A stretch of 64,000 bases of DNA from positions 3,354,125-3,418,124 of the forward strand of contig JACYXH010000522.1 in assembly GCA_026745465.1 (NCBI GenBank). Direction: 5' to 3'. Shown here in pieces: positions 1 to 61,965 of the stretch (the first letter of the stretch is position 1; the number at the start of each line of letters is the position of its first letter). This stretch comes from Lota lota (taxonomy: Eukaryota > Chordata > Actinopteri > Gadiformes > Lotidae). The position numbers and the translations under genes are program-made. The notes below the pieces were generated by a model. The model was given only the letters and a program-made list of their open reading frames with translations, was not told where the DNA came from and searched no databases.

Positions 1-131
1 AGGAGTTAAGCACCGTGTGTAGCTAAACAAGTCAAAAGGAGTTAAGTATCTTGTGTTTAAAGTAACTAAACCTGGTAAAGGAGTTAAGAACCTTGCGTAA
101 CTAAAACAGTTCAAGGAGTACCTTGCGTTTG
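1..131 (-). repeat. Tandem copies of the ccni exon 8 splice-donor boundary
   Basis: The true donor is CGCAAG|GTACTC, with the exon ending at 122. On the same strand the motif recurs with its downstream CTTAACTCC: CGCAAG|GTTCTT ending at 92, a copy with lost GT near 50, and CACG|GTGCTT near 14. That is about four units of 30-45 bp, cut by the window edge. Confidence 0.6.
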
Positions 132-61200: not shown

Positions 61201-61965
61201 AGGTTAGAGACAGACAGGGAGGTTAGAGAGACAGGTAGGTTAGAGACAGACAGGGAGGTTAGAGACTGACAGGGAGGTTAGAGACAGACAGGTAAATATT
61301 GCCAGAAAGGCAGGTTAGAGACAGACGGATGCAATTGTAAGCGACAGACAGGTAGGTTAGAGACAGGGAGGTGACAAACAGGTAGGGAGACAGATAAGGC
61401 GGTAAGAGACAGACGGGTAAATATTGACAGACAGGCAGGTTAGAGACAGACAGGTAGGTTAGGGACATACACATAGGTCAGAGACAGACCGGTAAGTTAG
61501 AGACACACAGGGAGGTTAGAGGGAGGTCAAGATTGACAGAGATGCAGGTTAGAAATAGATCGGTAGGTAAGACAGAAAGGCAGGTTAGAACAGACAGGTT
61601 AAGATTGACAGACAGTATTCTCTCAGAGACAGTTCACAACACGACAACATAAAATGTACGTGTTCGGAGATAGTATTTACGTTGCCAGAGAGAGGCAGAC
61701 TGTCGATTAGTTAATAATATCTACGTTGCCAGAGAGAGGCAGGCTGTCGATTAGTTAATCATATCTACGTTGCCAGAGAGAGGCAGAATGTTGATTAGTT
61801 AATAATATCTACGTTGCCAGAGAGAGGCAGACTGTTGATTAGTTAATCATGTTTACATTGTCGGAGAGAGGCAGGCTGTCGATGCGCTTGGTCAGGTTCT
61901 GGAGCTGGCCGTAGTACCACTCCTTCTCCTTCTCTTCCTTGTCTAGTTCAGCCAATAGGAGAGAC
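43475..61965 (-). CDS. apc: apc, adenomatous polyposis coli, exons 4 to end (5' end beyond window)
   Basis: APC scaffolds the beta-catenin destruction complex in Wnt signalling and binds microtubules and EB1. Exons (human classical numbers): 4 61857-61965, 5 60886-60999, 6 60702-60779, 7 58342-58395, 8 58164-58250, 9a 57299-57476, 9b 53484-53684, 10 53165-53260, 11 51856-51995, 12 51694-51771, 13 50916-51032, 14 49503-49720, 15 43475-49238. All phases join: 7234 bp, about 2410 residues. Exon sizes for 4, 5, 10, 11, 12 and 13 equal the human sizes I recall (109, 114, 96, 140, 78, 117). Exons 4-5 give the coiled-coil LTKRIDSLPL and TDMTRRQLE; 8 RRLTSHLGTK; 9a-14 the armadillo repeats (EMVYSLLSMLGTHDKDDMSR; ICPAVCVLMKLSFDEEHRHA; LRNLSWRAD). 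Full armadillo, 20-residue and C-terminal motifs identify apc, not apc2. Exons 1-3 must lie past 64 kb. Confidence 0.97.
49285..49525 (-). repeat. Six-copy array of the apc exon 14 end plus splice donor
   Basis: The exon end CCAACCAGGCCTACAG|GTTAGC is repeated into intron 14. Donor G positions: 49502 (authentic), 49461, 49418, 49375, 49334 (mutated ACGA|GTTAGC) and 49291, that is 41-43 bp apart. The copies keep ACCAACCAGGCCTACAG nearly unchanged, followed by GTTAG(C/T)ATT. Confidence 0.92.
49740..50915. other. apc intron 13 with minor repeats
   Basis: AT-rich. Contains imperfect repeats of agactgtatataatacag (50325-50440), a possible dispersed repeat at 50450-50740 related to the 25.0-kb segment, (TG)n at 50783-50819 and short tagtatagtatt repeats just before exon 13's donor. 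Confidence 0.6.
51180..51690. repeat. Short-period repeat of aagctaggctaagcat words in apc intron 12
   Basis: Roughly 18-20 bp units (gctaggctaa, catcaagcta) repeat about 12 times at 51180-51420 and again at 51600-51690, the latter ending at the exon 12 donor (exon end 51694). Confidence 0.85.
52010..52140. repeat. Tandem repeat in apc intron 10, 37-39 bp units
   Basis: Three or four units of aggaagttacatagacagac plus gaaagttac(a/t)tttgcagag, starting close to the exon 11 acceptor (exon start 51995). A related gacagacaggaagt series occurs at 53060-53160 next to the exon 10 donor. Confidence 0.8.
52160..52910. mobile_element. Reverse-oriented copy of the 28.4-kb hAT-like family
   Basis: The minus strand of 52300-52470 matches 28620-28830: ccactcatcggtcc, ggttacggcagagcttca and cttccaactatcacaaa are shared. 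The boundaries are not precise. A C-run of about 19 lies at 52865-52883. Confidence 0.6.
53725..55205. repeat. 45-bp minisatellite, about 33 units, in the intron that splits apc exon 9
   Basis: Units of 45 bp (cttaatactgtcataacc, atcactcattcagcc, gggctctctg) run for about 1.48 kb with few point variants (ccc/cct, tggct/tgtct, cca/ccg) and two 2-nt length variants. Because 45 is divisible by three a 284-codon plus-strand frame results; I reject it as a gene. Confidence 0.95.
55509..56200. mobile_element. Non-autonomous DNA element, about 690 bp, ends with TTAA
   Basis: Left gttaaagagccagtgaa and right ttcactggctctttaac are exact inverted repeats of 17 bp. The TTAA at each end could be a piggyBac-type target duplication or part of the repeat. 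A second partial copy lies at 23231. It contains no transposase frame. Confidence 0.7.
56255..57145 (-). mobile_element. Degenerate element with a Myb-like DNA-binding fragment (Harbinger-type candidate)
   Basis: On the minus strand near 56.63-56.88 kb a frame reads KWTDIEIRKCTELYNQH and then MLTAKQSKVIYKQ, with an in-frame stop before KWTD. The W-spaced pattern resembles the Myb/SANT-like protein of PIF/Harbinger elements. Subterminal inverted words acgtcggttgca occur at about 56324 and, on the other strand, 57050. Not intact. Confidence 0.45.
57480..58163 (-). repeat. 40-45 bp repeats filling apc intron 8
   Basis: About 14 imperfect units of ggataagctacagatgctat plus ctgagct fill the intron from the exon 8 donor to the exon 9a acceptor. 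The unit nearest the donor (AAG|GTGAGCTTCTCTGC) overlaps the splice site, and other units read GGTTAGCTTCTTT at the same place. Confidence 0.8.
58285..58340. repeat. (GAGT)n and (TG)n next to the apc exon 7 donor
   Basis: (gagt)n at about 58290-58320 followed by (tg)n, ending at the donor GTACAC of exon 7 (exon end 58342). The whole intron 7 of about 90 bp is simple sequence. Confidence 0.9.
58843..59525. mobile_element. Tigger/pogo-like MITE, 683 bp, TA target
   Basis: Ends cactttaccttcgctataacgc and, on the minus strand, cacttgaccttcgctataac(gc); both are flanked by TA. Short length and TA flanks suggest a Tc/mariner-superfamily non-autonomous element. It lies in apc intron 6. Confidence 0.7.
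60305..60420 (-). repeat. Displaced copies of the apc exon 6 end and donor, with (TA)n between
   Basis: The authentic exon end CACACTGAAGACAAG|GTATAC (60702) recurs as CACTCTGAAGACAAG|GTTTGC at 60397 and ACTCTGAAGACAAG|GAATTC at about 60314, the second without GT. A (TA)n of about 38 bp lies between them. A fainter relative (ttttcagagtgggggtata) lies near 58455. Confidence 0.7.
60795..60940 (-). repeat. Partial duplication of apc exon 5 (77 bp offset)
   Basis: The last 50 or so bases of exon 5 (MEEQLGSCQDMERRAL, donor CACTG|GTATAC) are repeated 77 bp downstream as MEEQLGSCQDMELRAL with donor CACTG|GTAACA (end 60809). Only 26 nt separate the copies, too short to be an intron. Confidence 0.88.
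61001..61132. repeat. (CA)n microsatellite at the apc exon 5 acceptor
   Basis: A (CA)n of about 130 bp. On the apc sense strand it is (TG)n running directly into the acceptor TGTGTAG of exon 5 (exon start 60999), with no other polypyrimidine tract. Confidence 0.97.
61133..61620. repeat. Imperfect gacagacaggtaggttagag repeat in apc intron 4
   Basis: Irregular 16-24 bp units of (g)acaga(c)aggnaggttagaga over about 480 bp, continuous with the (CA)n next to exon 5. It produces a spurious Leu/Ser/Val frame on the minus strand. Confidence 0.85.
61679..61890 (-). repeat. Five-copy array of the apc exon 4 end plus splice donor (44 bp units)
   Basis: Exon 4 ends CTCTCTCCGACAAT|GTAAAC (61857). Four further units downstream carry CTCTCTGGCAAC|GTAGAT, with donor G at 61812, 61768, 61724 and 61680, exactly 44 bp apart. 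The intron copies agree with each other more than with the exon copy. Confidence 0.92.

Follow-up and report, generated by a model that had tools for sequence, protein, structure and literature searches.

Copies of exon ends and splice donors in introns of a Lota lota genome segment, probably from tandem duplication across 5' splice sites

About a quarter of the 5' splice sites (donors) that we placed in a 64,000-nucleotide stretch of the Lota lota genome (assembly GCA_026745465.1, contig JACYXH010000522.1; the window, hereafter) have the end of their exon and the splice signal copied into the following intron, and this copying is confirmed to be real. These structures are probably ordinary minisatellites of a repeat-prone teleost, tolerated at donors since splicing would keep the exon-proximal site. 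Donors carry them roughly two to several times as often as appropriate intronic baselines would lead us to expect, an excess that is suggestive and unexplained, leaving either chance in a chosen window or a bias in the birth of repeats at the starts of introns.

Results

Gene models and repeat content

Human protein sequences used as probes locate four genes in the window. CCNI (1 to about 8600), TAF1C (17050-38534) and APC (61965 down to about 43470) lie on the minus strand, and CCNG2 (10756-14610) lies on the plus strand. Exon ends were placed by hand using homology, reading frame and GT/AG, with the exception of the CCNI 5'UTR exon and its donor, placed by position alone without homology. 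The models of CCNG2, of TAF1C (starting at the ATG) and of CCNI (from the ATG to the end of exon 8) translate open; APC is open in frame 1 with two stops, one at the VTSV end and the other beyond it, both within the last 80 residues. Together the models supply 41 donors and 41 acceptors. One APC exon was searched against viral and genome contig collections and had no relatives there, and the sample stays at 41 donors.

Rows reported by TRF cover 17.8% of the window (15.8% at periods of at least 10), and the periods of arrays at donors fall within the range of those in intron interiors. This repeat density is comparable to that of Atlantic cod, where tandem repeats make up 10.9% of the gadMor2 assembly (PMC5241972) and 21% of repeats have an indel in the sequenced fish.

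Copies of exon-intron boundaries

For each boundary, the 40 bases centred on it were aligned to the adjacent 300 intronic bases and compared with 200 dinucleotide shuffles, for which the lowest attainable P is 0.005. Twelve of the 41 donors and four of the 41 acceptors have copies at this floor; at z of at least 3 there were 10 or 11 donors, depending on the run, and again four acceptors. Control alignments at z of at least 2.5 gave nothing, either for donor 40-mers against their own intron inverted (0/41) or against the intron starts of other genes (0/123). An earlier, sequence-only reading of this DNA had named ten donors (CCNI 5' exon and exons 1, 2, 5 and 8; APC exons 4, 5, 6 and 14, which correspond to donors 61856, 60885, 60701 and 49502; and TAF1C exon 13, donor 21636) and the acceptor of CCNI exon 4, and all eleven have copies at the floor P of 0.005. 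At z of at least 3, eight of the ten donors persist in one run (CCNI exons 5 and 8 fail) and nine in another (CCNI exon 5 fails); exon 5 is the weakest, with z of 2.1 to 3.0 in low-complexity GT-rich DNA, and exon 8 the second weakest (z 2.9 to 3.3). The analysis added two donors, TAF1C exon 2 (37877) and APC 53164 (intron side only), and three acceptors, TAF1C 27797, APC 53260 and APC 51995. Weak candidates left out of the count are the CCNG2 exon 1 donor (40/55 identical at +122), APC 58163, and TAF1C 38408 (z 2.8, no copy mapped). None of the six CCNG2 donors reaches z of 3, and so the pattern occupies three of the four genes. TRF alone is insensitive to it: only four donors and one acceptor lie inside a set of 31 rows with a period of at least 15, taken from the 95 rows reported. 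The donors with copies are as follows.

8470..8551, minus strand: CCNI 5'UTR exon donor (intron starts 8546); one copy at offset 44, 33/40 identical, covering -5 to +33; copy donor gagGTATGG.
5887..5991, minus strand: CCNI exon 1 donor (5986); 39-bp array, 2.7 copies; mapped copy donor cagGTTAGG.
3016..3345, minus strand: CCNI exon 2 donor (3275); 76-bp array, 4.3 copies; the three copy donors mapped each read aagGTAAAC, and a copy holds about 70 bp of the coding exon's tail.
1821..2105, minus strand: CCNI exon 5 donor (2090); GT-rich array, GT kept in three of four mapped copies.
1..130, minus strand: CCNI exon 8 donor (121); two degenerate copies at offsets 30 and 72, GT kept only in the first; touches the window edge.
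37720..37892, minus strand: TAF1C exon 2 donor (37877); diverged copy at offset 120, 41/52 identical.
21480..21645, minus strand: TAF1C exon 13 donor (21636, GTCACA); copy cagGTAACA at offset 133, beyond an (AC)n tract, 30/32 identical.
61670..61883, minus strand: APC donor 61856; 44-bp array, 4.9 copies, with 27 bp of exon tail; the three copy donors mapped each read aacGTAGAT.
60806..60938, minus strand: APC donor 60885; single 77-bp duplication that includes 53 bp of coding exon tail; copy donor ctgGTAACA.
60289..60716, minus strand: APC donor 60701; two copies that do not follow directly head to tail, the one at offset 305 retaining GT and the one at offset 388 having lost it.
53057..53164, minus strand: APC donor 53164; repeat on the intron side only, from +4, with zero exon bases copied.
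49285..49521, minus strand: APC donor 49502; 43-bp array, 5.6 copies, within an intron of 264 bp; of the three copy donors mapped, two score at least as high as the exon's own.

If minisatellites are defined as head-to-tail units of 10-100 bp in more than two copies, they span four of these donors, with TRF arrays of 39, 76, 44 and 43 bp and 2.7 to 5.6 copies. APC 60885, being one duplication, lies outside that definition, as strictly does APC 60701 with its dispersed copies.

Drift of the copies

The copied exon tails behave as non-coding DNA. Across 11 donors the mismatches at codon positions 1, 2 and 3 number 11/134, 12/141 and 15/143, a flatness that rests on 418 aligned bases and indicates that the tails are not read as coding sequence. 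Frame is likewise disregarded: the offsets of the copies include all three remainders modulo three, and the TRF periods divisible by three amount to 15 of 17 in coding exons, 12 of 67 in introns and 3 of 10 among boundary-spanning rows (these rows overlap and so do not count as independent arrays). Selection thus acts on exons and leaves the copies at boundaries alone.

The copied splice signals are intact in most cases, with GT present in 19 of 22 mapped copies from the 11 donors, so that the repeat units carry donors in the manner of human IFI6. This retention, and the fact that several copies are as strong as the original or stronger, could be taken to mean that selection retains spare donors as backup sites or for U1 binding. 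We consider that highly improbable, since the identity of GT among copies (41/44) is what the surrounding identity predicts (385/423 in exon tails and 490/560 in the intron) and positions +3 to +6 fare worse (70/85); on these 22 copies, the copied donors are neither kept nor purged. Nor are the donors with arrays significantly weaker than others (median scores 4.6 and 5.8, P 0.41), and the idea that they are weak donors with backups was dropped.

We propose that the arrays arise when segments about 30 to 130 bases long (near 300 in one case) are duplicated in tandem. Where the duplicated segment crosses a 5' splice site, extra exon tails and donors would be placed in the intron; the spliceosome would stay on the exon-proximal donor, the messenger would be the same, and the copies could drift freely. 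Duplications within exons would survive mostly when they keep the frame, and a duplication across a 3' splice site would put a competing AG upstream and be less well tolerated, so that arrays near acceptors mostly end about 30 to 50 bases before the site. What was computed here comprises the arrays, the neutral drift of their copies, the contrast in frame and the differing edge positions at donors and acceptors; the choice of donor and the reason that acceptors differ we infer. Three sites are uncomfortable for the rule that the exon-proximal donor wins, because a downstream copy there outscores the exon's own donor (TAF1C 21636, 7.2 against 3.2; APC 60885, 5.1 against 2.6; APC 49502, 8.4 against 7.0).

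Acceptors and the edges of arrays

Copies at acceptors, for which only the best copy was sought, all retain the AG.

2409..2582, minus strand: CCNI exon 4 acceptor (the exon begins at 2465); its upstream copy, offset by 90, is 75/90 identical.
27785..27871, minus strand: TAF1C acceptor (the exon begins at 27797); its upstream copy, offset by 58, is 25/28 identical.
53257..53372, minus strand: APC acceptor (the exon begins at 53260); its upstream copy, offset by 81, is degenerate (26/34 identical).
51958..52204, minus strand: APC acceptor (the exon begins at 51995); its upstream copy, offset by 179, is 50/67 identical.

Between the last of these acceptors and its upstream copy lies an array of 40-bp units (52005-52204), as if it had grown within an older duplication.

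When the anchor is slid along the sequence, first copies at donors peak between -10 and +10 (9, 11 and 12 of 41), fall to 8 and 7 of 41 at +20 and +30, and number 2 to 6 of 33-39 from +60 onwards. In the mirror image at acceptors the peak lies at -30 to -50 (7, 10 and 7 of 41), and the count for anchors centred on the AG is 4 of 41. Arrays therefore run across donors but mostly end before the stretch from branch point to AG. The first AG downstream of the branch point is favoured as acceptor, from which it would follow that an upstream acceptor copy is costly. The counts of donors and acceptors taken alone are not significantly different (10 and 4 of 41, Fisher P 0.14). In four introns (TAF1C 27087; APC 58163, 53164 and 51693) arrays start just inside the intron without a clear donor copy, and the pattern thus belongs as much to intron starts as to donors.

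Is there an excess at donors?

The sequence-only reading held that the duplications prefer splice boundaries. That preference is absent against naive random intronic anchors and present, for donors, against nulls restricted to first copies; at acceptors (4/41) there is no excess. The random-anchor comparison, suggested in that reading as a check, was ambiguous, with copies at 309 of 1493 random intronic anchors (20.7%) and at 10 of 41 donors (24%). These figures favour the view that repeat density alone is high and that donors are matched as often as any intronic point, a serious alternative which in our judgement falls somewhat short of being probable. It draws further support from a rule under which the alignment must extend 6 bases to either side of the anchor, which leaves 6 of 41 donors (14.6%), 3 of 41 acceptors and 296 of 1493 random anchors (19.8%) and so, when compared with random anchors rather than a first-copy null, speaks against a donor excess. 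This rule loses four donors: the copies of the CCNI 5' exon and exon 1 donors hold 5 exon bases, that of APC 60885 holds 3 bases of intron, and at APC 53164 no exon sequence is copied.

However, the naive comparison is unfair, because random points sample long arrays according to their length and over-count them, while a donor is fixed by the preceding exon and can lie only in the first copy. Among random anchors without an upstream copy only 5.0% have a downstream copy, giving 2.0 donors expected against 10 observed (P 2.5e-5); under the same null the acceptors show 4 against 2.1 expected (P 0.16). If one first-copy point is drawn per intron, 3.3 donors are expected (P 1.5e-4), and 4.5 acceptors against the 4 observed. 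A null that omits the first 40 intron bases expects 4.1 donors, with P of 0.0001 and 0.0005 in two runs. The harshest null, which draws on the whole of the same intron and leaves the donor arrays in the pool, is the most favourable to a pure density effect: at z of at least 3 it expects 6.4 donors against 11 observed (P 0.016), donor P ranging from 0.013 to 0.039 over four thresholds, and 4.9 acceptors against 4 observed. In introns of at least 1000 bases, 5 of 13 donors have a first copy where 0.74 would be expected (P 0.0002), and these five include the intron-only APC 53164; shorter introns give 6 of 28 where 3.4 would be expected (P 0.085). With any single gene left out P is still at most 0.025. 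Overall, the enrichment of donors over first-copy nulls is about 1.6- to 7-fold, with P from 0.039 to below 1e-4 by null and threshold (short introns alone apart), values that are optimistic in that the 1493 anchors are clustered into 37 separate first-copy runs and the window was singled out because the pattern had been noticed there.

Tolerance, which the sequence-only reading had offered as one explanation (selection accepting only those exon-overlapping duplications that splicing hides), is well supported as a filter, given the frame contrast and the drift without codon constraint, and does not serve as the source of an excess of donors over intron interiors. It predicts that the rate at donors should be at most that of the interior, whereas the first-copy nulls at z of at least 3 expect 2.0 to 6.4 donors and 10 to 11 are observed.

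A second suggestion in that reading was that G/T-rich donor words seed slippage, so that any CAGGTRAG-like word might start an array. Unused donor-like words do show a slight rise with score: they are first copies in 24 of 294 cases (8.2%) on the sense strand and 23 of 279 on the antisense at scores of at least 3.2, in 14 of 120 and 15 of 112 at scores of at least 5, and in 4 of 37 and 4 of 32 at scores of at least 7, against a baseline of 5 to 9%. The difference from real donors (11/41) is clear at the lowest cut-off (Fisher P 0.001 on each strand) but only slight at the higher ones (P 0.026 and 0.086 at 5; 0.090 and 0.16 at 7), the rate for words being about half that of real donors or less. 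Furthermore, anchors placed at +7 to +46 contain neither exon nor the consensus of the donor, and 12 of these 41 have a downstream copy (with no first-copy condition), which speaks against exon conservation or consensus matching as the only cause; neither donor score nor flanking G+C separates the donors with arrays from the others (P 0.41 and 0.85). Donor words may help and probably do not suffice; as the explanation of the pattern we find them improbable.

It might also be argued that the excess is one of detection, the conserved exon copy keeping boundary arrays recognisable for longer. Identity is slightly higher in the exon tails than in the intron, the count declines once the aligned piece is wholly intronic (centres +20 and +30), and some of the first copies counted there belong to arrays that do not clearly include the donor. 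Nevertheless, the counts at those two centres are still above the baseline of 5 to 9%, acceptors enjoy the same exon advantage and have no excess, and the excess persists under a strict score (7 donors against 1.1 expected at a raw score of at least 20). We regard this bias as an improbable explanation.

There is a further reading, in which the starts of introns in this fish lineage are a birth hotspot for tandem duplication, with duplications several times commoner at or just after 5' splice sites than elsewhere in introns, and much less so at 3' splice sites, through a process linked to the junction, such as R-loops, polymerase pausing or breakage coupled to splicing. We think this possible, though unlikely.

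Discussion

Minisatellites at exon-intron boundaries have precedents, and the statement in the sequence-only reading that the phenomenon has no established name applies to the donor bias only. In the human gene IFI6/G1P3, as described in the sources available to us, a minisatellite sits at the end of an exon and its units carry several splice donors, as here; there two downstream units serve as alternative donors in one gene, whereas we describe a recurrent pattern with donors that are putative, predicted from sequence. De Grassi and Ciccarelli (2009, PMC2812944) reported tandem repeats at the exon-intron boundaries of human genes in segmental duplications, retaining 27 intron modifications after inspection. 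Like ours, these are boundary minisatellites (on average 30-bp units in 4 copies), but they were found through recent paralogs and novel introns are said to form, whereas here an existing intron is lengthened; the portion of that paper available to us has no test of donors against acceptors or of enrichment at boundaries. Intron gain in which exon sequence carrying a proto-splice site is duplicated in tandem (Lehmann 2010, PMC2891723; also PMC4974935) has in common with our observations, so far as the accessible text goes, a duplication at the exon edge that splicing can hide, and differs in that no new intron is evident in this window. The exon sequence on both sides of the introns matches the human proteins, and the introns carrying duplications look old, their positions being judged within this window alone.

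In the main text of the Atlantic cod study (PMC5241972), as available, the words 'exon' and 'splice' are absent and 'intron' occurs once. Among open-licence PMC titles and the beginnings of abstracts we found no test of repeat enrichment at donors, which is not proof of its absence in print. Novelty would lie in the rate, in the bias towards donors and in the evidence for neutral evolution of the copies.

If the excess is true genome-wide, the birth of minisatellites would be uneven along genes and tied to the exon-intron junction, and hence to transcription or splicing; the arrays would also provide a natural series of duplicated donors from which the choice among near-identical, competing 5' splice sites could be read. 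If it fails genome-wide, the arrays remain an illustration of the ease with which splicing in a repeat-rich vertebrate accommodates duplications at exon-intron boundaries.

Other repeats in the window

Two introns hold long arrays of 45-bp units, one of 39 copies in TAF1C (18862-20621), which stops 15 bases upstream of an acceptor (exon start 18847) and does not copy it, and one of 33 copies in APC (53728-55210). The penultimate exon of TAF1C contains an in-frame coding minisatellite of seven 48-bp units (17449-17782). A further TAF1C intron has nested inverted repeats at 36080-36969, with arms of 32 to 113 bases that are 86 to 97% complementary, perhaps a non-autonomous DNA transposon, and the stretch at 63100-64000 resembles the remnant of a Tc1/mariner transposase.
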